This document shows positions 51,871 through 64,000 of a stretch of DNA of 64,000 nucleotides, in pieces; the first letter of the stretch is position 1; each line of letters starts with the position of its first letter. A program made the translations under genes and the position numbers. Origin of the DNA: Allorhizobium pseudoryzae (lineage in GTDB: Bacteria > Pseudomonadota > Alphaproteobacteria > Rhizobiales > Rhizobiaceae); the NCBI RefSeq assembly GCF_011046245.1, contig NZ_CP049244.1, positions 992,001 through 1,056,000 of the forward strand, given 5' to 3'. The notes below the pieces were generated by a model that saw only the letters and a list, made by a program, of their open reading frames with translations, searched no databases and was not told the origin of the DNA.

Positions 51871-51923
51871 TCGCGCGAATGCGTGGTGGCCGGCACGTCC
51901 GGCCGCCGATGTGCTTTCCTGAA

Positions 51924-51964
51924 ATGCACAAAGGCCGCGGGTTTGATCCGCGGCCTTTGTGCAT
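51924..51964. terminator. Strong bidirectional terminator between katG and CNB-protein gene
   Basis: ATGCACAAAGGCCGCGG and its exact complement CCGCGGCCTTTGTGCAT form a 17-bp perfect stem with a 7-nt loop, in the gap between convergent genes. Confidence 0.85.
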
Positions 51965-51984
51965 GTCTCGATCGGGTCTGAGCT

Positions 51985-52464
51985 TCAGCTGGCGGGTGCA
52001 TGCTCGCGGCTGCGCGCCAGCGATAGTTCCATCGTCGTGTGGTTCAGGCGGTCGGCCAAAACGCGCATGATCTCGACCGCCATGTCCGGGAAATCGTTCA
52101 TCAGGTCGAGGAAGCTGTCCTTGCTGATCTTCAGCACTTCCAGCCGGGTCGTGGCGCGCACCGTCGCCGTCCTCGAGACGTCGCACAGGATGGCGATTTC
52201 GCCGACGATCGAATTCTGCTCGACCTCCGCCACCTTGATCTCGCTCTCGCCCGAATCGACAAGCACATCCGCCGTTCCCGACAGCACCACATAGGCCGCG
52301 TCGCCGGCATCGCCCTGGCGGAAAAGGTTCTGGCCTTCCCGGCACGTCAACCGTTCAGAGGCGAAGGCCAGAAGCTTCAGCTTGGCCGGCGCGATCTTGG
52401 CGAAGAGCGGCACGCGCCGCAACATTTCCACTTCGTCCTTCAACAGCATCGGCAGACCTTTCAT
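51985..52464 (-). CDS. Stand-alone cyclic-nucleotide-binding domain protein
   Basis: This 159-residue protein consists of one CNB domain and a short C-terminal helix, with no helix-turn-helix or kinase. The phosphate-binding cassette is intact: GEIAILCDVSRTATVRA, with Glu89 and Arg98 positioned to hold the cyclic phosphate and ribose. It should bind cAMP or cGMP. Starts at 52464 and 52449 (MLLKDEVEMLRRVP, with AAAGG upstream) are both possible. It lies 14 bp downstream of the 913-aa ABC-like protein and is the last gene of a cluster containing a membrane cyclase, so it may be the ligand-binding regulatory subunit of that ABC-like protein. Confidence 0.85.
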   Translation of the reverse strand: MKGLPMLLKDEVEMLRRVPLFAKIAPAKLKLLAFASERLTCREGQNLFRQGDAGDAAYVVLSGTADVLVDSGESEIKVAEVEQNSIVGEIAILCDVSRTATVRATTRLEVLKISKDSFLDLMNDFPDMAVEIMRVLADRLNHTTMELSLARSREHAPAS

Positions 52465-52478
52465 GACCTGGCAAAAGA

Positions 52479-55217
52479 TTAATACGAGACGAGTTGCTTG
52501 AACATACTCTTTTGATCGGCGAACTCGGCAAACGTCCCATTTTCGACAAGATTGCCATTCTGGAAAACCATGATCCGGTCAAAAAGTTCGCTCATCCGTG
52601 CGTTCGGCAGAACCCAGAGGATGGCCGGCTTGTGTCCCTCCTCGTGCAGATCGGTCATGATGTTGCGCGTGATGGCTTCCTGGGATCGCTGATCGAGCGC
52701 CGGCAGCGGCCGGTTGAAGATGAAATAGTCGGATCGTTTGAGAAGCGCGCGGGCGAGATTCAGCTTCTGTCGCTGGACATTCGTCAGCCGCCGTCCCTGC
52801 GCGCCAACCTGGAAATCCAGCCCGATCGACAGGACGTAGTCCTCAAGCTCCAGTTCGCGGAAAATGGACTGGATGATGCTGCGGATCTTGTCGCTCGTTT
52901 CCGCGTCCTGCAGGCTGATGCGCCCAAACAGAACATTGTCCATCAGCGATGCGGACGCCATGAAATGTTCGGGATCGTAGCGCTCGATGGCTTCGGCCAG
53001 TTCCGGCGGAATATCGGCGTAGAACTGCGTGCGGGCCTCGACGATCATCGCCATCAGATCGGCCGTCAGCAGGCCGAAGCGATGCCGGGGTTCGATATAG
53101 GCAAAGCTCAGGCGGATGATGTTGGCCCGTTCTTCCCCGCTGGCCTTTTCGAAGGAATGTTCCTTCAGTTTCGGCAGCAGCGACTCGTAGGCCGGAATGT
53201 CTTCCGCCTTCATGAAGGTCAGCTGCTGGAAGAACGGATGGCCGGGGGGAAGGTCGCGGAACAGTTCGACCATGTTCTCCGCAATCTCGAGCCCCATGTC
53301 GTAGAGCTTGGCGACCAGCCCGGTCTGGCGCAGGACCTGCCGGAAATAGGGATGTTCCGCAAGGTCCTGGCTGGTCATCAGTCCGGGTTTCATGACACCG
53401 AACAGGATGTTCTCACCGACGCTGGCCAGACTGTTGTAACTGCCGTCTTCGAAACTCTCGACCACGCCGTCCAGATCTTCGGCCACCAGGCGGTCGCGCA
53501 GTGCCGCGCGGACCATGACGATCTGGTCGGTCATGACGCCGTGGGTGTCGATATCCACCTGCGAGCGCAGGGCGAGGTAGAACAGATCCTGTGAAATGGT
53601 CACCGCATCGAGAACCGGACGGATGACCTTCAAGAGATCGTCCGGTCCGCTTGCGCCCGCGGCGCGATAATCGATCCAATCGCTGTTGAGGTCGAGGACC
53701 GGGTTTCCGGCACTGATCGTCTCGCCGATTTTTCTGCGGAAGGTGCGGGCATCGGCGCCCTCGTAGGTCACGTCCGTCAGCGGTGCATGTTTGAGCACAT
53801 AGAGAAGGTTGTCGCGAAGCGTGCCGTGGAAGAAATAGGTGTCGGACGAGACGTAGGAGATGCGGCGTCCGGTAATCGCTTCCGGCACCTTGCGGATATC
53901 CTTTCCGTCGATCGTGATCTCGCCCGATGCCGGCCAGACGATACGACCCAGCGCTTCGGCCAACGCGTCGCCGCCCGAGCCGGGATCGCCGAGGATCGCC
54001 ACGGTCTCGTCGGGGGCGATCTCCAGCGAGACATGGTGGAGGATCGGCGCATTGCTGTCGTCGGTCAGCACCAGGCCGGTGATCACCAGGGGCGAGAGAA
54101 GCCGCGGTACCGGCTCGCGGAACACCTCCTGGATTGTCCGGTCGCTCAACCCGTCCACATCGAATTGTTCGCTCACCTGCGCGTATTTGATCTGCACGTC
54201 CTGACGTGCCTGATCCCAGTCGATCAGCTCCTTGAGGGGGCCCGGAAGATCCTTGTAGGCGGCGATCACCGCCACCAGCTGGCCGATGTCGATCCGGCCC
54301 TGGAGCGCCAGATAGCCGCCGATGGCGTAGAACAGAAAAGGCGTCACCTGGGCCAGGAAGTTGTTGATGAACTTGACCAGGAATTTCCACTGGTAGAGAT
54401 CGTAGCGGATCGCAAAGATCCGGCCCAACCGGTCGGCGATGTCGGCGCGCTCGAGGTTGGATGTGTCGTGGCCGCGGATGGTGTGGATGCCGTCGACGAT
54501 CTCGCTGACGCGCCCGGACAGCTCGCGCGCGGTCAGCTGGCGCTCGCGCCCGAGGATCAGGAGACGCTTGCGCATTCTGGGGATAATGATCGCCTGCACC
54601 ATCACGATTGCGAAGGCGATCATGCCCAGCCAGAAGTTCTGCATCAAGATGAAGGCGAGCGCCGTCAGCGCCTGGCCGCCCAGAAGCGCCGGCTGCACGA
54701 AGGCATCACCGGTAAAACCGCCGAGCGGCTCCACCTCGTCCTTGACCATGGTGGCGATCTCGGCCGCGCGCACGCGTTTGAAGTGCGAGGGCGGGAAGCG
54801 CAGCACACGGTCAACCAGTTCGAAGCGAATACGCCGCAACATCCGTTCGCCAAGCCTACCCTTGTAGGTGTTGATGTAGAACTTGAAGAGACCGTTCAGC
54901 ACCACAAGGCCGAGAAAGACGCCGCTCAGCGCCATCAGCATCTGGACGCGATCAAGCTCCACCCCCTCGAAGAGCTGGATGTGACCGATCAGCGGCAGGT
55001 CGAAGGCAATCGGCATGAACAGCTGGGTGGCATCGGGAGCGCCAAAGCCGTCACCCTGGATCGGGCCGTTGACGATGCGTTTGGGCAGGTCGAAGGAGAG
55101 GAAATACGGGATCATCGACGCGGCGACGACCAGCAGGATCCACAGTTGCTGCTTGTAGGTGTTGACCCAGATGTAACGCGTGAGGCTTTTTTCCATCGTG
55201 CTCTTCATGTCGGCCAT
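52479..55217 (-). CDS. ABC exporter-like protein with degenerate ATPase and ~280-residue insertion
   Basis: This protein (912 residues from the ATG at 55217) has an exporter-type six-helix membrane domain at about 25-325. Its nucleotide-binding region is split. The Walker A position reads GDPGSGGDAL (about 411-420), without the essential Lys. The Q-loop region, ISYVSSDTYFFHGTLRDNLLY, has no Gln. About 280 unrelated, mostly helical residues follow (about 475-757), containing a second FGVM-type echo (ENILFGVM). Then come SLMDNVLFGRI, LTNVQRQKLNLARALL in place of LSGGQ, and YFIFNRPLPALD in place of LLLDEPTSALD. The H-loop His is also absent. The scaffold is conserved but every catalytic element is altered, so ATP hydrolysis is unlikely. 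It sits between a CNB protein and two cyclase-like genes. Confidence 0.8.
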   Translation of the reverse strand: MADMKSTMEKSLTRYIWVNTYKQQLWILLVVAASMIPYFLSFDLPKRIVNGPIQGDGFGAPDATQLFMPIAFDLPLIGHIQLFEGVELDRVQMLMALSGVFLGLVVLNGLFKFYINTYKGRLGERMLRRIRFELVDRVLRFPPSHFKRVRAAEIATMVKDEVEPLGGFTGDAFVQPALLGGQALTALAFILMQNFWLGMIAFAIVMVQAIIIPRMRKRLLILGRERQLTARELSGRVSEIVDGIHTIRGHDTSNLERADIADRLGRIFAIRYDLYQWKFLVKFINNFLAQVTPFLFYAIGGYLALQGRIDIGQLVAVIAAYKDLPGPLKELIDWDQARQDVQIKYAQVSEQFDVDGLSDRTIQEVFREPVPRLLSPLVITGLVLTDDSNAPILHHVSLEIAPDETVAILGDPGSGGDALAEALGRIVWPASGEITIDGKDIRKVPEAITGRRISYVSSDTYFFHGTLRDNLLYVLKHAPLTDVTYEGADARTFRRKIGETISAGNPVLDLNSDWIDYRAAGASGPDDLLKVIRPVLDAVTISQDLFYLALRSQVDIDTHGVMTDQIVMVRAALRDRLVAEDLDGVVESFEDGSYNSLASVGENILFGVMKPGLMTSQDLAEHPYFRQVLRQTGLVAKLYDMGLEIAENMVELFRDLPPGHPFFQQLTFMKAEDIPAYESLLPKLKEHSFEKASGEERANIIRLSFAYIEPRHRFGLLTADLMAMIVEARTQFYADIPPELAEAIERYDPEHFMASASLMDNVLFGRISLQDAETSDKIRSIIQSIFRELELEDYVLSIGLDFQVGAQGRRLTNVQRQKLNLARALLKRSDYFIFNRPLPALDQRSQEAITRNIMTDLHEEGHKPAILWVLPNARMSELFDRIMVFQNGNLVENGTFAEFADQKSMFKQLVSY

Positions 55218-55355
55218 CAACGTTGGGGTAAACCGTCGATAGCGTCCGTCCCCTCTGCCTCGAACTGCTGCAGCTGAATATTACGGGGGAAGTGCCGAAT
55301 GGCAATCGCGGGGTCAGCGTGAGGTGACATCCAGCGCAAACACGGCTGGAAAACC

Positions 55356-56567
55356 TCAGCCGGTGCGGGCTGTCTGTTCGGCGTCGAGCTTCATTGCAAG
55401 GTCGCGGGCAGCCAGAGCATACCCGCCATTGCCGCCATCGATGAAGTGCACGTGGTCCTTCGACATCGGGGTCAGCACGAAACAGGTCATCAGTGCACTG
55501 TCCTGGCGATGCATGCCGTAGTGGCAGATGCCCTTGGCCTCCGCATCGGCAAGCAGGACCTCAAGACGCCAACGATGAGCATCATCCACATCCACCGTCA
55601 TCTTCAGTCCGTCGTCGAACTTGCGGAAATCGGAGTTTTCCGCCACTTCGCGGGCATAATCGCGCGCGTTAAAGCGGCCCATTGACAGGTTGAACTTGTA
55701 GAGCAGGACGGCAAGAAGGGCCTGCGTGAGGCCAGAAAGCCGCGCGCGCAACCGTTGTCCGGGCGGTGCGGCGGCGGTCTCCGCGTCGATGTTGCCCGCC
55801 CTGAAACGAAGGGGCGGTCCCTCGACCGGCACGGGATGGCCGTCCCGGTTCTGTTCGGCGGTCACGGCAATGATGGCGGCCACCAGCGCCCGAAACTCCG
55901 GCATCGTCGCTTCGGATACGGGTTTGGCGATAATGGAGACAACGTCGCCATTCTGCGCCGCGATCGGGTCCCAACGGCAGGAGAGGCCGGTCAAATCCGG
56001 GTGTGTGTCGGCTTTCCGGTCGATCCTGTAGCGGCCGGACTTCATCTGCTCTTCGGCCCAGCTTACGCCCCCGCCGCTGAACATCGCGTAGGAGACATGA
56101 TCGCTGGCGCCGAACCGGGCCACGCGCACATCGAGGCCGGCCTCGCGAATGTCGATGAGCGGCACGAGCGCCACCCGCAGCTCGAGCTGTAGCTCCGCCG
56201 AGACCCAGTCCCGCACCGCCGCAAGGATCTGTGTGGCCTGCTCCTCCAGGGCGCCGGGCAGGGCAACAATCGCCCCGTCGCCGCCGAAGACGAACGGGTA
56301 GTCCTTCATGTCCATGCCGTTGAGAAGCGCCGAGATCACGCTGGCGCCGGCCATGTTGACCGTTTTGTAGCGGCCTTCCGCAATCGCCTTGGTGGAGCCG
56401 ACGATATCGGCAACGGCCAGCACCCAGCCCTCCGGCAGCGGCGTATAGCTTGCCGTCTCCGCAACGCCTTCGAAGCGGGTGAGCAGCGGAAGCTGCTGGA
56501 AGAAACTGCCGGCTGCGTTGCGAGTATCCATGGCGGAGACGCTAGCATGGTTTGCGGGGCTTGGCAT
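55356..56567 (-). CDS. DUF3095 protein, divergent class III cyclase-like
   Basis: This 403-residue soluble protein belongs to DUF3095, which has no assigned function to my knowledge. Its N-terminal part resembles a class III nucleotidyl cyclase: ADIVGSTKAIAEGRYK places Asp54 at the first metal position and FVFGGDGAIVALPG places Asp97 at the second. The spacing is 43 residues, against 44 in the neighbouring true cyclase. The usual adenine-selecting and transition-state residues are not evident in the rest, so it may have a different product or be regulatory. The start at 56567 overlaps the cyclase stop (TGATG); an ATG at 56531 is an alternative. Confidence 0.8.
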   Translation of the reverse strand: MPSPANHASVSAMDTRNAAGSFFQQLPLLTRFEGVAETASYTPLPEGWVLAVADIVGSTKAIAEGRYKTVNMAGASVISALLNGMDMKDYPFVFGGDGAIVALPGALEEQATQILAAVRDWVSAELQLELRVALVPLIDIREAGLDVRVARFGASDHVSYAMFSGGGVSWAEEQMKSGRYRIDRKADTHPDLTGLSCRWDPIAAQNGDVVSIIAKPVSEATMPEFRALVAAIIAVTAEQNRDGHPVPVEGPPLRFRAGNIDAETAAAPPGQRLRARLSGLTQALLAVLLYKFNLSMGRFNARDYAREVAENSDFRKFDDGLKMTVDVDDAHRWRLEVLLADAEAKGICHYGMHRQDSALMTCFVLTPMSKDHVHFIDGGNGGYALAARDLAMKLDAEQTARTG

Positions 56568-58303
56568 CAGGCCGTTCGCGTCTTCAGGGCTCTTCCCGGC
56601 GCCGTCGTCTGCAGCAGCATGCCGGTCATGGATTTGCCGAAGACGAAAATACGTAGCGGAATGGTCCGGCCGCGCACCACGATCTTGCGGGTCTCCGCCA
56701 TGGTGACATCGACGTTGGACAATGTCGCAACCGGCTCCGACATCACGAGTGGCATGTCGATTTCCTTCGCAGTCGTTTCCAGGCGGCTCGCGACGTTCAC
56801 GGTATCGCCGATTGCCGTCAGGTTGCGGGCGTTGCCGTAGCCGAGCGTGCCGACAACGGCGGAGCCCGCATGGATCCCGATCGCCACTCGAAGCGGTATC
56901 GTCAAGTCCTGCGACAGCTGCCGGTTCAGCTCGTCGATCCCTTCGATGATCCCGGCTGCGGCGCGAACCGCCTGACGGCAGCCATCCTCAAGAGATCCGT
57001 TGATGCCGAAGAGCGCCATCGCGCCATCGCCGATGAACTTATCGACGCGTCCGCCGGCGGCTTCCACCGCCGCGCCGACCACCGCGAAGTAGCGGTTCAA
57101 CAGAAAAACAATATCGAAGGGCAAGCGTGCTTCCGAAATCGTCGTGAAGTTGCGGATGTCACAGAAGAGAACCGCGATCTCGCGTTCCCGTCCCGGAACC
57201 GCCTCGTAGGATTCCGAAACGCCTTGCGGGTCGGGAAATGCCACAAGCAGCGGCGACAAGGTGACACTGCCCGTCGGTCGAAGCTGGCAGGCGAGGCGCA
57301 CGCCGGGCCCCGCCTCGATCCTGTCCAGTGTCCTTTGCTCGGCTGGGTCCGCGGCCGGCAGATGCTCTTCGCCGTCGATGATCTGCACGCGGCAGGTGGA
57401 GCATCGGCCCTTGCCGCCGCAAACGGCGTAATGGGGCTTGCCGGCAATCCGGCTCGCTTCCAGGACCGTGAAGCCGCGCGGCACGCTGATCGCCTCGCCT
57501 GTGACATAACGGATCGTGACGAGGTGGGCGCGCTCCCGGATCCAGCGGATGCCGCGCGCCGCAAAGATCAGGACGACGGCGGACACGAACACGCCATAGA
57601 GGATCACGCGCAGGTCTTGCAGTTGCTCCACGGCGCCCACCGGCAGGATCGTCGGGTCATAGGTTCCGCCCGGAAAGCCGCTCAACGGAAAGGTCGGGTT
57701 GGCGATCGTGCGGCCCATCTGCACGAAGCCGAGCAGCGACAGGATCGGAAGCAGGATCGCCAGCGTCAGCGCCCAGGGCCAGATGCCGGCATACCAGGAG
57801 CGATAGCGCAGCCAGAAATGGATCCCGATGCAGCCATGCGCCCAGATCACGATCAAAGCGAGGGACTGCTTGAAACCGTCTGCCGGGGATTTCGTCCACA
57901 GGCTGTGAACGATGGTTTCGTAGCTGTCCCGCAGATGGAAGAGATGCGAGGCGACGCGGGTCCCGAGGATATGGTCGATCAGCAGCAGCGGAACGGAAAG
58001 CCCGAGCACGACCTGCATCGCCTCGGACTTCGGCATGGCCAGGCTTCTTCGCACAAACAGCGTCCGGAGCACGAGAATGACGTGCACCAGGAAAGAGCCA
58101 TAAAGCAGTGTCGTTCCGATCGGATGGCGCCAGATGGCGAGAAGCGCGGGGCGGGCATGATCTGCGGCCTGAACCGAAATGAGGCCGATACTGTGGTTGA
58201 TGATATGCATCAGCAGGAACAGAAAGATGATCAGGCCCGACAGCAGGCGCGCACGACGCAGCTGCCGCTCCGAAAAAAGCCCCTTCAGGATATCCGCCGC
58301 CAT
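56567..58303 (-). CDS. cyaC: Membrane-anchored adenylate cyclase with His-rich anchor and [2Fe-2S] domain (CyaC-like)
   Basis: This 578-residue protein has three parts. About six membrane helices (18-250) carry several histidines in or near helices (H33, H37, H74, H111, H120, H123, H156, H162), like the dihaem anchors of succinate dehydrogenases. A ferredoxin-like [2Fe-2S] domain follows (about 262-350) with Cys295, Cys301, Cys304 and Cys339. The C-terminus is a class III cyclase: Asp382 and Asp426 for metals, Lys422 and Asp500 for adenine, Asn503 and Arg507 for catalysis. This matches my recollection of the redox/quinone-responsive CyaC of Sinorhizobium meliloti. It would report quinone-pool redox state as cAMP. 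Confidence 0.9.
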   Translation of the reverse strand: MAADILKGLFSERQLRRARLLSGLIIFLFLLMHIINHSIGLISVQAADHARPALLAIWRHPIGTTLLYGSFLVHVILVLRTLFVRRSLAMPKSEAMQVVLGLSVPLLLIDHILGTRVASHLFHLRDSYETIVHSLWTKSPADGFKQSLALIVIWAHGCIGIHFWLRYRSWYAGIWPWALTLAILLPILSLLGFVQMGRTIANPTFPLSGFPGGTYDPTILPVGAVEQLQDLRVILYGVFVSAVVLIFAARGIRWIRERAHLVTIRYVTGEAISVPRGFTVLEASRIAGKPHYAVCGGKGRCSTCRVQIIDGEEHLPAADPAEQRTLDRIEAGPGVRLACQLRPTGSVTLSPLLVAFPDPQGVSESYEAVPGREREIAVLFCDIRNFTTISEARLPFDIVFLLNRYFAVVGAAVEAAGGRVDKFIGDGAMALFGINGSLEDGCRQAVRAAAGIIEGIDELNRQLSQDLTIPLRVAIGIHAGSAVVGTLGYGNARNLTAIGDTVNVASRLETTAKEIDMPLVMSEPVATLSNVDVTMAETRKIVVRGRTIPLRIFVFGKSMTGMLLQTTAPGRALKTRTA

Positions 58304-58360
58304 GTTCCGCCGTTCTTGTTTGCCGCGGACTGTCCTCCGTCGGCTTCACGCGTCTTCCGT

Positions 58361-59194
58361 TTAACGGATATCGAGCACCATTCCGTCGAAGGCCGCCACG
58401 GTGTTCGGGAAGGCCTCCTGCGCCAGCCGTTCCAGCAGCGCCATTTCGCCGTCGGTGCGGGTGGGAGAGTGATGGAAAAGAACCAGCTTTTTCGCGTCGG
58501 CAGCCTGCATCAGTTTCACCCCTTGTTCCCAGGTGGAGTGGCCAAAGCCGCGGTAGCGCTGCATCTCCGCTTCGGTGAAGGCGGAATCGTAGACGACGAC
58601 ATCGGCGCCCTCCATCAGGGCAAGGGCTGTCGGATCCAGTTTTCCCGGTTCATGCTCGATGTCGAACACCAGTGCCAGAGCCTTCCCCTCCCATTCCACG
58701 CGGTAGCCGATGCAGCCACCCGGGTGATTGAGCGCAAAGGTCTTGATGACGATGCCGGGCTTTGGTGTGATGATCTCGCCGGCACGGAAATCTGAAAACC
58801 GTAACGTGGCATTGCAGATTTCGACGTTGATCGGAAAAAATGGCGGGCTAATGAACTTCTTGATCATCTCGCCCGTCGTCATGGCGCCGCACAGATGGCC
58901 GGACCAGAAGGTCACGGTGATGGCCGGGTTGTAGATCGGCTTGAAAAACGGCAGGCCGATGATGTGGTCGTAATGACAGTGCGTGAAGAAGACATTGATG
59001 TCGTCCACGCTCTGTCCGAGCAGCGACTGGCCGGCGCCCATGATACCGGACCCTGCATCGAAGATCAAAATATGCTCGCCGCACCGGACTTCGAGACACG
59101 GCGTATTGCCGCCGTATCGAACGAAGTCGTCGCCCGACACCGGAATGCTGCCGCGCGTACCCCAGAATTTCACGTAGAACCGCTGATCCGTCAT
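58361..59194 (-). CDS. MBL-fold metallo-hydrolase, candidate cyclic-nucleotide phosphodiesterase
   Basis: This 277-residue protein has the metallo-beta-lactamase fold in the ribonuclease-Z/phosphodiesterase-like subgroup. It begins FYVKFWGTRGSIPVSG and has GGNTPCLEV, the metal motif FTHCHYDH, later His/Asp ligands (FDIEHEPG, VYDSAFTEAE) and LVLFHHSPTRTD. No signal peptide is present. I start at the ATG at 59194, since the upstream 14 codons are not family-like. It is the first gene of the cyclase cluster, 57 bp before cyaC. A cAMP-degrading role is attractive from context, but this fold hydrolyses many substrates. Confidence 0.75.
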   Translation of the reverse strand: MTDQRFYVKFWGTRGSIPVSGDDFVRYGGNTPCLEVRCGEHILIFDAGSGIMGAGQSLLGQSVDDINVFFTHCHYDHIIGLPFFKPIYNPAITVTFWSGHLCGAMTTGEMIKKFISPPFFPINVEICNATLRFSDFRAGEIITPKPGIVIKTFALNHPGGCIGYRVEWEGKALALVFDIEHEPGKLDPTALALMEGADVVVYDSAFTEAEMQRYRGFGHSTWEQGVKLMQAADAKKLVLFHHSPTRTDGEMALLERLAQEAFPNTVAAFDGMVLDIR

Positions 59195-59430
59195 CTGCCC
59201 AACACGCACACTCTTGTTGTATAAGATAGTGTGCAAACCTTACCGTTTCACGCAGCCAAGAGTGTTTTGCCCCGAAAGGCAAGCCCCTCACTGGACCTCC
59301 CGGCAAAAGCGCCTGCCGTTTCACAGGCAAACTCTTGCCGGCGGATCATCAGGCTGTCATCGGAAGTGCCTATTTGATGTCGCAATGCCGGATTTGGTCC
59401 GGCGCCTTCAATTCCAATCACGAGTACGAG

Positions 59431-60333: not shown

Positions 60334-61986
60334 TCACGGCTGCGACAGGGCCTCGGTCAACAGCGCTTTCACGGCACTCATCGGAACCTCACCCGCTGCG
60401 GGTGGATGCAGACCGTCCGCAAATCCCCGGCTTCTAAAGCGGTCCAGAAGTGCGGCGTCGCGGGTAATGACGTGCATCGGAACGGCGCGGGACGCATCCG
60501 GCCCGGTGACGATCGAAGCTGGCTGGTGGTCGCCGATGACGATGAACAGGTCGTCGTCGCCATAGGTTTCGATATAACTGCCGATCGTCTGCAGCGAATA
60601 ATCGATGGTGCGGATATAGTGCTGGCGCACCCGTTCCGGGTCGGCCCAGACCTCTTGCGGAGTTGGCCCGCTCTGTGCCTCGGTGTCGAAGATCCGCCCA
60701 TCGCCCACCGCGGCCCAGTCCACGAGAGAGGCGACCGGCGTCCAGGGCGCATGGCTGGAAATCAGCGCCACCTCCGCCATCACCGGCTTGCGGCCCGGCT
60801 TTTCCCGCACCATGCTTTGCAACGCCGATAGGGTATACTGGTCCGGCATCGTCACCCAGTTGTAGGGTTTGCCCCGGTAACCGAGATCCTTGGCGGCCAG
60901 CACCCGGTCGTAGCCGTAATAGGCGGCTTCCGGCCAGTCCATGGTGATGGCCGGCATCACCCCGACGCTCTGCCAGCCGGCCTCGGAGAACTGCCTGTTC
61001 AGCGTCGGCCAGTCGCTCATCATCAGCCGGTCATAGCGGGCCTGATTGTCAACCCAGAGGCCGGAGAGGAACGTGCCATGCGCCAGCCAACTGAGGCCGG
61101 CGACCGTGGGCGATGTGATCCAGCGGCTGGCTGAGCCAAAGCCCTTCGCCGCCAGTTTCTCCTCCAGTTCTGTCAGGCGCGGGCTGATGAGCGGCGCGTA
61201 GCGAGGGTCTTCCACGGCGCTGCGCCCATAGGATTCGACAAAGATGAGGATCACGTCGCGGCCTGCCACCTGTGCAAAGTCCGGCGCTGCCGGCGATGTG
61301 GGGGCCGGATCAGACAGCGTCCGCTCGAACGCCGCCATGTCGGCAATCGAGGTCGCGATCAGTGTGGTGCGGGCCTGCAGATAGGGCAGTGCACCCGCTT
61401 CTATGGCGAATGGCAGGCGCAGCGGCAGCGCCAGCGCGATCAAGGCTGCGACCGAAACGGCGGCGGATATGGGCCGCATTCCATCCCGTGCGGGAGGTGG
61501 TGTCGCGGCAACCCCGCGCAGGCTGCGGGCATAAAGGGCGAGAAAAACGAGAAAGGACAACAGGATGGCGATAATGCCGGCCGCTGCAATGCCGGTGCCG
61601 ATCGCGCCCGAAAGAAGGTTCCAGCCGTCCAGCAGCATCTTGCCGTCGAGATAGGGATTGAACGGTCGCTGGAAGGCGCTCTGCGTTCCGATGTCGGCAA
61701 GCTTCAGAAACAGGATGAGGCCGAGTAGCAGCGTCACGATCCACCGGAAGACTGTGCCGATCCGGCCTTGAAAGACCATCAGAAACAGCGCGATCACTGG
61801 TACTTCCACCGGCAGGCGGAGGAAGGCGGCAAACCGCACGGCGTCCGGATGATCCGGCAGGTTGAGAATGACGGTCGTGAGCGTCAGAACGGTGATCCAC
61901 GCAAGGATCGTGGGCAACAGCGCGCGATGAGCGCGCTGCCCGGTGCCCTCAATTCCGCGTCGACTGGTCTGCACCTTGTCATCCAC
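60334..61986 (-). CDS. Membrane sulfatase/alkaline-phosphatase-superfamily enzyme (phosphoglycerol-transferase-like)
   Basis: This 550-residue protein has about five membrane helices in residues 20-200, then a periplasmic catalytic domain of the LTA-synthase/OpgB/sulfatase superfamily. Metal-site elements are DVILIFVESYGRSA at the start of the domain, a Ser/Thr-rich segment SPTVAGLSWLAHGTFLSG at the likely nucleophile, and FIVIGDHQPAS near the end. Such enzymes move phosphoglycerol or phosphoethanolamine from lipids to glycans. The start is GTG at 61986 with AAGGAG eight bases upstream; a nearby ATG is out of frame. It converges on the TIM-barrel gene and is divergent from a lipid-flippase-like gene. 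Confidence 0.82.
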   Translation of the reverse strand: MDDKVQTSRRGIEGTGQRAHRALLPTILAWITVLTLTTVILNLPDHPDAVRFAAFLRLPVEVPVIALFLMVFQGRIGTVFRWIVTLLLGLILFLKLADIGTQSAFQRPFNPYLDGKMLLDGWNLLSGAIGTGIAAAGIIAILLSFLVFLALYARSLRGVAATPPPARDGMRPISAAVSVAALIALALPLRLPFAIEAGALPYLQARTTLIATSIADMAAFERTLSDPAPTSPAAPDFAQVAGRDVILIFVESYGRSAVEDPRYAPLISPRLTELEEKLAAKGFGSASRWITSPTVAGLSWLAHGTFLSGLWVDNQARYDRLMMSDWPTLNRQFSEAGWQSVGVMPAITMDWPEAAYYGYDRVLAAKDLGYRGKPYNWVTMPDQYTLSALQSMVREKPGRKPVMAEVALISSHAPWTPVASLVDWAAVGDGRIFDTEAQSGPTPQEVWADPERVRQHYIRTIDYSLQTIGSYIETYGDDDLFIVIGDHQPASIVTGPDASRAVPMHVITRDAALLDRFRSRGFADGLHPPAAGEVPMSAVKALLTEALSQP

Positions 61987-62061
61987 CGTAGGTTCTCCTT
62001 ACAACCATCCTGTCGCATCGCCTGATGAGCGGCAAACCCGAAAGTCATACCCTTGCGCTAC

Positions 62062-62967
62062 ATGCATCTGGCAGGAAGCCTTGCCGCTCTCGTCCTGGTT
62101 CCGGTTCTGATCGCCCATATCGATCGGGGTCCGCTGCTGAAAGCGCTGTCGGACGTCTCGCTGGTCGAGATCGCCATCGGTCTCCTGATCGTCCAGGCGC
62201 AGATCATCCTGTCCGCGCTTCGCTGGCGTTTTACCGCCCAACGGCTCGGCCAGGACATGCCGCTCGGCTGGGCCGTGCGGGAATATTACATTGCCACAGC
62301 GCTCAATCAGACGCTGCCGGGCGGCGTGGCCGGCGATGCGTTGCGTGCCTATCGAAGCCGCACCTCCGCCCCGTCGGGCATCAGGCTCGCGGCGAAAAGC
62401 GTGATTATTGAGAGGCTGTCCGGTCAGATGGCCTTCTTTGTCGTCTGTGCCTGCGGGCTGTTCTTCTGGCCCGGCCTGCTGGCGAGCGTCTTTCCCGTCG
62501 GGCTTCTTCCCGTTGCCCTGCTGAGTGCGGCCGCCCTCATCGTGATCCTCGTCCTCGCCTGGAAAAAGCTTGCCCCACTCCGCGACGATCTTGCCCAGGT
62601 CTTCGTGCGTGACGGCGCCTGGAAACGGCAGGCCGGTCTCAGCCTGTCGGCGGTTGGGTCCTATATCCTGCTCTTCTGGTTTGCTGCGCATGCCACAGGC
62701 GGCACGTTGCCGCTTTCCGGGCTCGTCACCGTCGTGCCGCTCTGTCTTCTCTCGATGCTGATTCCCACCGGTTTCGGCGGCTGGGGAACGCGCGAGGCGG
62801 CGGCTGCCGCGCTCTGGCCGCTGATCGGCCTCGCCAGTGCGCAAGGGGTTGCGGCGAGCGTCACCTATGGGGCTCTGGCCCTGATCGGCGCGCTTCCAGG
62901 GCTTCTGCTTCTCCTCGTCAGTCATCGCACGGCAGCAAAAGAGGCTCACCGGGAAAGCCGGGCATAG
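62062..62967 (+). CDS. Lysylphosphatidylglycerol-synthase-TM/flippase-like membrane protein
   Basis: This integral membrane protein of about 301 residues has roughly eight helices and belongs to the LPG-synthase transmembrane (UPF0104, AglD/YbhN-like) family. Diagnostic stretches are SALRWRFTAQRLG, YYIATALNQTLPGGVAGDALRAYRSR and the C-terminal IPTGFGGWGTREAAAAAL. Family members handle or flip polar lipids or polyprenyl-linked sugars. The ATG at 62062 is chosen, although a TTG nine bases earlier is in frame and neither has a clear ribosome-binding site. Its last 22 bases overlap the convergent FkbM gene. Confidence 0.82.
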   Translation: MHLAGSLAALVLVPVLIAHIDRGPLLKALSDVSLVEIAIGLLIVQAQIILSALRWRFTAQRLGQDMPLGWAVREYYIATALNQTLPGGVAGDALRAYRSRTSAPSGIRLAAKSVIIERLSGQMAFFVVCACGLFFWPGLLASVFPVGLLPVALLSAAALIVILVLAWKKLAPLRDDLAQVFVRDGAWKRQAGLSLSAVGSYILLFWFAAHATGGTLPLSGLVTVVPLCLLSMLIPTGFGGWGTREAAAAALWPLIGLASAQGVAASVTYGALALIGALPGLLLLLVSHRTAAKEAHRESRA

Positions 62968-63692
62968 ATGTCACCCGATGGGGCGTCGGGCGCAAGATGC
63001 TGGATCTTTGCCTGCAAGTCCGCAAGGCCGGTCCACTCCGGTTCGACAAACCGGTGGCTTTCCCCCACGACCCGGTTGAAACGGTAATCTCCCCGGCTCG
63101 CAAGCGCTGCCAGAGCCGCGTCCGTCAGGTGCGGCATGGAGGGAATATATTCGAACGCGACGAGCGGCAGCGGCTCGTCCACGCCGTTCAGAATATCGGC
63201 TTCGGCACCCTCGACATCGATCTTGCAGAAATCGGGCATTCCATAACGCTGAACGAGGTCCGCAAGCGTCACCATCGGTACCTTCAGCGTGCGGTCCCAT
63301 TCGACAGAGGCAAAACCCGGCGTCTTGGCAGCCGTCTCGACGAAACTCGTGGAAATACTGGTCACGGTCGGGTGCCGGCTTGAAATATGAAGGTCGATCT
63401 CGCCGCTCTCGCGCCCGACGGCGACGCGTTCCAGCGCCACCAGATCCTTCTCCAGATGCTTGTGCAGGAAGTCGGCGAACAGCGGCTGCGGTTCGACCGC
63501 CACGACCCGTGCGCCGAGCTGCAGCAGGGTCCGACTGCGGCTTCCCACATGAGCGCCGATGTCGAAGACGAGATCGCCGGGCTTCACCAGTGCGCGATAG
63601 AAACGCTTCAGGCTGCTCCGCCGCCAGGGCATGCCGTAATAGATCGCAATGGAACGGGCGAGACCGAACGAGGCGGCGAGGTTTCCGGTCAC
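62946..63692 (-). CDS. FkbM-family SAM-dependent methyltransferase
   Basis: This 248-residue protein has the FkbM-type Rossmann methyltransferase core: GDLVFDIGAHVGSRSRTLLQLGARVVAVEPQP for SAM binding and FCKIDVEGAEADIL near the active site. These enzymes O-methylate sugars or lipids, often in surface glycans. I start it at GTG 63692, which overlaps the stop of the upstream gene (GTGA), giving translational coupling. A longer frame to 63977 reads out of phase through that upstream membrane-protein gene and looks non-native. Substrate unknown. Confidence 0.85.
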   Translation of the reverse strand: MTGNLAASFGLARSIAIYYGMPWRRSSLKRFYRALVKPGDLVFDIGAHVGSRSRTLLQLGARVVAVEPQPLFADFLHKHLEKDLVALERVAVGRESGEIDLHISSRHPTVTSISTSFVETAAKTPGFASVEWDRTLKVPMVTLADLVQRYGMPDFCKIDVEGAEADILNGVDEPLPLVAFEYIPSMPHLTDAALAALASRGDYRFNRVVGESHRFVEPEWTGLADLQAKIQHLAPDAPSGDIYARLSR

Positions 63693-64000
63693 GGAGCGCT
63701 GTCCTTGCGGGTGAGAAGCCAGATCGTATCGACGGCGAACGAATAGACGAGAAGCGCCAGGCACAGGGCAGAGAGCATGCCCGATGCCGGTTGCCCGAAG
63801 CCGGGCAGGATGACGAGACAGAGGGCCGCCACCTGCACCACACAGATGATCTTGCGCCGCAGGGAGGGGAAAAGCTCCTGGCGCAATTTTGGCAGCAGCC
63901 ACTGGGCCAGGATGAAACCGTAGCGCATCAGGCCGATCAGCACCACCCAGAGCCCCGCCTTTCCGAGCACGGCGCAACCGATGGACAACATCAGGATCAG
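63689..64000 (-). CDS. C-terminal part of membrane protein, probable CDP-alcohol phosphatidyltransferase
   Basis: The gene enters from the right edge, so only about 103 C-terminal codons are visible; an internal ATG at 63991 is probably not its start. The fragment has three or four hydrophobic segments. A basic loop, PKLRQELFPSLRRKIICVVQ, precedes VAALCLVILPGFG, and it ends SFAVDTIWLLTRKDSAP. This pattern resembles the C-terminal helices of CDP-alcohol phosphatidyltransferases, whose catalytic DG...AR motif would lie off-window. It is coupled to the FkbM gene. Identification is tentative. Confidence 0.5.
   Translation of the reverse strand: MILMLSIGCAVLGKAGLWVVLIGLMRYGFILAQWLLPKLRQELFPSLRRKIICVVQVAALCLVILPGFGQPASGMLSALCLALLVYSFAVDTIWLLTRKDSAP

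Follow-up and report, generated by a model that had tools for sequence, protein, structure and literature searches.

The window analyzed here, the whole stretch of 64,000 nucleotides from Allorhizobium pseudoryzae (contig NZ_CP049244.1, positions 992,001 to 1,056,000), carries a row of minus-strand genes for a stand-alone cyclic-nucleotide-binding (CNB) protein, an ATP-binding cassette (ABC)-like protein that appears to lack a complete ATPase site (hereafter pseudo-ABC), a DUF3095 protein, a membrane adenylate cyclase and a metallo-β-lactamase (MBL)-fold hydrolase. A first-pass annotation had taken these for a closed circuit of five consecutive genes built around cyclic AMP (cAMP). The gene row itself is borne out by the open reading frames (ORFs) and their Pfam matches, and two junctions are visible in the sequence: the cyclase and DUF3095 genes overlap in a TGATG (cyclase stop at 56569-56567, DUF3095 ATG from 56567), and 14 bp separate the ABC-like gene from the CNB gene. 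As judged by comparison across genomes, the core of the system is a two-gene unit of pseudo-ABC and CNB protein found across Alphaproteobacteria. The five genes, and an insertion in the nucleotide-binding domain (NBD) of the pseudo-ABC, are the following.

51985-52464, minus strand: CNB protein, 159 aa (cNMP_binding PF00027, 71 bits)
52479-55220, minus strand: ABC-like protein, 913 aa (ABC_membrane PF00664, 72 bits; ABC_tran PF00005, 54 bits)
52956-53774, minus strand: NBD insertion of the pseudo-ABC, ~270-300 aa, about residues 483-755
55356-56567, minus strand: DUF3095 protein, 403 aa (PF11294, 437 bits against a gathering threshold of 22.2)
56567-58303, minus strand: CyaC-type membrane adenylate cyclase, 578 aa (Guanylate_cyc PF00211, 69 bits; Fer2 PF00111, 37 bits)
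58361-59236, or from the ATG at 59194, minus strand: MBL-fold hydrolase (Lactamase_B_2, 61 bits)

By itself a row of five genes is not evidence; what counts is its conservation across genomes. At an E limit of 1e-60, which leaves weaker relatives out, the pseudo-ABC occurs in 57 of 121 genomes of the family sample, 79 of 240 of the class sample and 20 of 249 of the phylum sample, the last all within the class except for one partial match. The family, class and named samples overlap (e.g. L044 and L161 are identical), and their counts are not independent; partial second pieces (G139:C115 and G178:C170 in the class, G328:C556 in the family) were left out. A CNB partner was scored when it was encoded on the strand of the pseudo-ABC no more than 700 bp downstream, or was fused to the C-terminus of the pseudo-ABC. 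By this definition it is present at 59 of 59 family loci (57 adjacent, 2 fused; both copies of the window's own genome included), at all 80 named loci and at 72 of 81 class loci (64 adjacent, 8 fused), which agrees with the earlier proposal that the CNB and ABC-like proteins belong together. The C-terminal fused CNB domain was confirmed by Pfam in Azospirillum and Ruegeria. The fusion may have a single origin, and independent origins are not claimed, since the tree requires only one change.

The 913-aa protein, whose conserved start is probably Met9 at about 55196, appears to be an exporter fold without a complete ATPase site. It combines an ABC transmembrane domain of the Type IV (ABCB-like) fold with a degenerate NBD. 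In aligned columns of the window protein, the Walker A Lys is replaced by Gly and its Ser/Thr by Asp, the Q-loop Gln by Ser, LSGGQ by LTNVQ, the Walker B Asp by Asn, the catalytic Glu by Arg and the H-loop His by Pro. Walker A Lys, Ser/Thr and Walker B Asp are jointly kept in none of 181 relatives, a tally that includes 41 of the 81 class matches. The protein had been described as having no recognisable ATPase motifs; the complete set is indeed missing, but the NBD is still recognisable, though degenerate. The NBD fold is predicted to be intact in a structure model that matches ABC exporters (TmrAB and TM287/288 among them) and the ComA NBD, and transmembrane residues are highly conserved among relatives. 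When three of the five proteins were compared with PHROGs, the ABC-like protein matched two ABC families and, weakly, one unknown, and the other two were without a match.

Within the NBD insertion, the sequence following the Q-loop recurs in additional copies. Profile comparison matched residues 575-660 to 730-815 (probability 98.7, E 4.6e-16), and residues 440-520 to 730-815 (probability 93, E 3.4e-7) and to 575-660 (probability 78), and the control segment 640-735 gave a probability below 1 against both 440-520 and 730-815. The repeat motifs DNLLYV, ENILFG and DNVLFG begin at residues 470, 603 and 761. A split of the pseudo-ABC frame into two pieces in the Sinorhizobium meliloti 1021 record (L218:12667-15433) may be a sequencing error or decay; the record of strain 2011 matches the gene along all 2712 bases.

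In the 159-aa CNB protein the domain match covers residues 41-123. PF00027 is its only Pfam match and no DNA-binding domain follows it, and identity as a CRP/FNR transcription factor was rejected for want of such a domain. Stand-alone CNB frames have a median stop-to-stop length of 169 (n=188), and 15 exceed 230. The phosphate-binding Arg98 is found in 57/57 family, 39/39 class, 83/83 named or plasmid and 4/4 fused sequences, and Glu89 in 54/57, 37/39, 80/83 and 1/4 of these, respectively, with Asp in the other three fused proteins. Both residues presumably serve in the cyclic-nucleotide pocket. The cyclase combines a histidine-bearing transmembrane domain, a [2Fe-2S] ferredoxin domain and a class III cyclase domain. 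Its His33, 37, 74, 111 and 156, the four Fer2 Cys, Asp382, Lys422 and Asp426 are present in all 26 homologues, Thr496 in 25 and Asn503 and Arg507 in 24 each, the remainder being gaps. The ligand residues noted as intact in the window copies of both proteins are conserved in homologue alignments as well. The cyclase appears to be of the CyaC type, with adenylate-type catalytic residues (as we take Lys422 and Thr496 to be) and putative redox sensing.

The DUF3095 protein is predicted to form a tandem class III cyclase-like fold within one chain, with two metal-binding Asp residues (Asp54 and Asp97, by sequence motif). Its N-terminal half matches the cyclase domain weakly (probability 48), and no significant match to that domain was found for its C-terminal half (probability 0.15); identity to the class III adenylyl cyclase-like ATP-binding protein of Pseudomonas aeruginosa (PDB 6yii) is 9%. 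No open-access paper on DUF3095 was found. Its distribution follows that of the pseudo-ABC: all 50 carriers among the 121 family genomes also have the pseudo-ABC (57/121 overall), as do 13 of 16 carriers in the class sample, compared to a background of 79/240 (hypergeometric 8e-27 and 6e-5, phylogeny ignored and the window's own genome in both). The MBL protein scores 46.2 bits against NF041851, the model of cyclic-nucleotide-degrading MBL phosphodiesterases, compared to a cut-off of 400, and is a weak candidate for such an enzyme. A second cyclase type of ~447 aa, with a weak PF00211 match, recurs in the clusters (L222:2504-3847, L220:18003-19352).

All five families, with either of two cyclase types, lie within one ~20-kb stretch at 29 of 199 loci in several arrangements, so that their co-occurrence extends beyond very close relatives. 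The exact order MBL-cyclase-DUF3095-ABC-CNB is found in the window, in Rhizobium sp. SL86 (with the ABC frame split in two) and in SSA_523, and Rhizobium sp. 18065 has the same order with a second cyclase inserted. The closed five-gene circuit did not hold up, as most pairs outside the family have no cyclase, MBL or DUF3095 gene nearby. The five-gene framing was also incomplete, having missed the surface-glycan cluster around the system.

This cluster recurrently contains glycosyltransferases, a deacetylase-like protein (polysaccharide deacetylase in the records; Pfam gave no family), a UDP-sugar dehydrogenase and a peptide-type importer. Counts were made at loci with long flanks, leaving out short contigs and 19 short class stretches, and the glycosyltransferase labels are best matches among the query proteins, which may mix paralogues. 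At least two of four glycosyltransferase families are encoded near the pair at 27/46 family, 33/42 class and 54/74 named loci, and at least two parts of the importer at 22/46, 26/42 and 53/74, respectively. At 22 of the 42 class loci the four glycosyltransferase families and the deacetylase-like gene lie on the strand opposite to the pair.

In Rhizobium johnstonii 3841, all five families lie together with glycan genes at 56-87 kb of pRL11. This cluster holds the CNB, pseudo-ABC, three glycosyltransferase, importer, cyclase, UDP-sugar dehydrogenase and DUF3095 genes, an FkbM gene, a CyaC-type cyclase, a fourth glycosyltransferase, a deacetylase-like gene and the MBL gene. It also includes a canonical-looking ABC exporter, RL_RS30060 (L222:8205-9995), which is rare elsewhere. 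The gene pRL110044, which has a growth phenotype (PMC5118466), was considered as the CNB gene and rejected, as gene order puts it beside the CNB gene. On pSymB of S. meliloti RCAM1750 all five families are likewise present, in a set that spans from aminotransferase and deacetylase genes to a LacI gene; in this record DUF3095 is in two frames (L220:21130-22393), which may be a sequencing error or decay, and is missing from the gene table.

Reported annotations identify smb21247 as a deacetylase and smb21248 as an aminotransferase (PMC5498481), and SM_b21272 as a LacI-family regulator (PMC11387232), from which gene order would place the S. meliloti pair at about smb21269 and smb21270. Fitness under phazolicin is reported to fall when a transposon disrupts any of nine genes in the interval from smb21252 to smb21271, and the putative phazolicin-protecting polysaccharide was named PPP; genes that may take part in its synthesis are reported to be under cAMP control, and cyaA insertions were depleted (PMC10128002). 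Seven of the nine genes are reported as up-regulated under Myxococcus attack (PMC10315480). By gene order the S. meliloti pair would lie inside this PPP locus.

The genome of A. pseudoryzae has a homologous gene set in the same conserved order, split in two. A survey of the window's own contig, C4 (16 stretches and the window), found a second pseudo-ABC/CNB pair at a distance of 150 kb (C4:1197771-1201050), with a pseudo-ABC 55% identical to that of the window. It is followed by the genes for glycosyltransferase GTd, the UDP-sugar dehydrogenase, the deacetylase-like protein, the importer and GTa-GTc, to 1215831. The system looks divided here, with the signalling genes at one pair and the glycan genes at the other.

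Further features of the window flank the five genes on both sides.

51900-51975, minus strand: 17-bp hairpin, dG -40 kcal/mol
60334-61986, minus strand: sulfatase-like protein, 550 aa (PF00884, 20.5 bits, under the cut-off of 25)
61999-62949, minus strand: protein of unknown function, 316 aa, no Pfam family
62946-63977, minus strand: FkbM-type methyltransferase (PF05050, 59 bits); the window end cuts the ORF, which is 392 aa in the genome

The sulfatase-like gene lies upstream of the MBL gene, and in the nearest relatives, Rhizobium sp. SL86 and SSA_523, the block extends upstream to the sulfatase-like, unknown and FkbM genes; FkbM genes recur across the glycan clusters. The DUF3095 and ABC-like genes are 135 bp apart, and the gap holds a weak promoter-like match (9/12; four sites of this grade in the region vs. 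1.9 expected), and therefore a single five-gene operon is not established. The strong hairpin that directly follows the stop codon of the CNB gene, where this gene and the peroxidase gene converge (z -7.4, 0/200 shuffles as good), has no T-tail and is absent from the results of a T-tail terminator scan; it is a possible end of the transcription unit.

The adjacency or fusion of the CNB domain, together with the frequent glycan cluster, suggests that the pseudo-ABC responds to a signalling molecule and is not powered by ATP. We tentatively favour, at a little under an even chance, a cyclic-nucleotide-coupled pseudo-ABC exporter acting in surface-glycan export or assembly. The sequences show that the pseudo-ABC, with its exporter and NBD folds predicted to be kept, has an incomplete ATPase site, and that a CNB domain accompanies it, either in a separate protein or fused to its C-terminus. 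In the proposed system the cyclic nucleotide bound there, instead of ATP turnover, would set the conformation of the exporter dimer. A glycan intermediate might thereby be gated or flipped, or the co-encoded glycosyltransferases switched; the pair is often linked to genes of the four glycosyltransferase families, the deacetylase-like protein, the UDP-sugar dehydrogenase and the importer. In Rhizobiaceae the CyaC-type redox-sensing cyclase would supply cAMP to the pair, the MBL protein may remove it, and DUF3095 would make or sense a second nucleotide. It is more doubtful that exporters throughout the class gave up ATP hydrolysis, with CNB-bound cyclic nucleotide controlling their conformation as a ligand-gated, ATP-independent flippase or gate for a surface glycan, and with Rhizobiaceae adding, for its local control, the redox-sensing cyclase, a possible phosphodiesterase and DUF3095 as a second nucleotide enzyme.

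Several observations weigh against the proposed exporter. Class members keep the Walker A Lys (29/41), the Glu (24/41) or the His (19/41), so that ATP binding is possible in some of them. In 4 of 81 class loci the CNB frame overlaps the pseudo-ABC or lies just upstream of it, and 5 of 81 have no CNB in the stretch examined. Fewer than two glycosyltransferase families accompany the pair at 17/46 family, 9/42 class and 20/74 named long-flank loci, and in the window genome the glycan genes adjoin the other pair, 150 kb off. Among class long-flank loci, MBL is present in 1/42, the two cyclase types in 1/42 (CYC) and 2/42 (CYC2) and DUF3095 in 0/42, and a third cyclase type lies near the pair in 3/41. 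The S. meliloti gene numbers are derived from gene order, the 1021 record used being free of annotation, and membership of the pair among the nine PPP genes is to be read with the same caution. The ppGpp binding reported for HetC and the interactions reported for CyaC, both described below, also weigh against the proposed exporter. Biochemistry of the pair was not found in the open-access literature.

One alternative is that nothing is transported and the pseudo-ABC is a membrane receptor or scaffold resembling SUR, with the CNB protein controlling glycosyltransferases or the importer. SUR subunits of KATP channels bind nucleotides at their NBDs and are not known to have a CNB partner. The ABC fold is common to SUR and exporters and hence does not discriminate between the two, and the high transmembrane conservation is equally expected of a substrate path; we consider such a receptor unlikely, if not strongly so. 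Less likely still is that cAMP acts on the glycan genes through Clr or other CRP-type regulators and that the CNB protein answers another ligand, e.g. (p)ppGpp. Clr/cAMP is reported to control polysaccharide genes up to smb21248, adjoining the PPP locus (PMC5498481), and S. meliloti CyaC to interact with Clr and CycR (PMC10463352), so that cAMP could act through transcription. In the ABC-linked CNB domain of HetC, cAMP gave no significant thermal protection and ppGpp was bound (PMC10986499). In contrast, the CNB protein studied here retains the Glu and Arg of cyclic-nucleotide pockets, and cyclase, MBL and DUF3095 genes lie near the pair itself in the 29 of 199 loci noted above.

It is very unlikely that the pseudo-ABC is the degenerate half of an asymmetric heterodimeric exporter driven by ATP at an active partner. 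Degenerate-site ABC heterodimers exist, with TmrAB and TM287/288 among the fold matches, and the R. johnstonii cluster includes RL_RS30060, but a homologue labelled as this exporter was found at only 1/46 family, 0/42 class and 1/74 named long-flank loci, and it is the entire NBD, not one composite site, that is degenerate. A Pycsar-type phage defence of cyclase and CNB effector is scarcely credible: PADLOC Pycsar models match the CNB protein (60 bits) and the cyclase domain (87 bits), but these look like generic domain matches, the cyclase has the presumed adenylate-type Lys422 and Thr496, and conservation of the pair alongside glycan genes extends across a class.

ATP use is the defining feature of ABC exporters. 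If the proposed coupling is true, it would represent a different control of the same ABC fold, with a second messenger acting directly on envelope transport and not on transcription. Candidate functions would also follow for DUF3095, for a CNB protein that has no DNA-binding domain, and for the link between cAMP and the putative surface polysaccharide by which rhizobia are protected from an antimicrobial peptide. No description of the pseudo-ABC/CNB pair was found among the matches listed in the open-access literature, as far as titles and abstract openings tell. The parts are of known kinds; what appears new is their combination, in which an exporter predicted to be ATPase-deficient throughout its family is accompanied almost constantly by a CNB domain.

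Among known systems, the PPP locus, as mapped by gene order, shares glycosyltransferases, importer, deacetylase-like protein, cyclase, MBL, DUF3095, pseudo-ABC and CNB protein in one cluster, unlike the window copy, which is separated from its glycan genes; in the passages of PMC10128002 considered here it figures as a polysaccharide locus, with no account of the pair. Like the window cyclase, the redox-sensing adenylate cyclase CyaC of S. meliloti has a histidine-conserved membrane domain and a class III cyclase domain, but its gene (smc01818) is reported beside TetR and LysR regulators (PMC10463352), whereas the window gene belongs to the neighbourhood of the pseudo-ABC/CNB pair. TIGR03896, a bacteriocin-type transport-associated CNB protein, also links a CNB domain to transport by name, and the window protein scores 45.8 bits against it, with a cut-off of 161. 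In HetC of Nostoc PCC 7120 an ABC exporter is joined to a CNB domain needed for function; HetC is reported to require its own ATPase and to have a C39 peptidase and an N-terminal, ppGpp-binding CNB domain (PMC10986499), whereas the pseudo-ABC appears to have lost its ATPase site and has its CNB domain as a separate protein or at the C-terminus.
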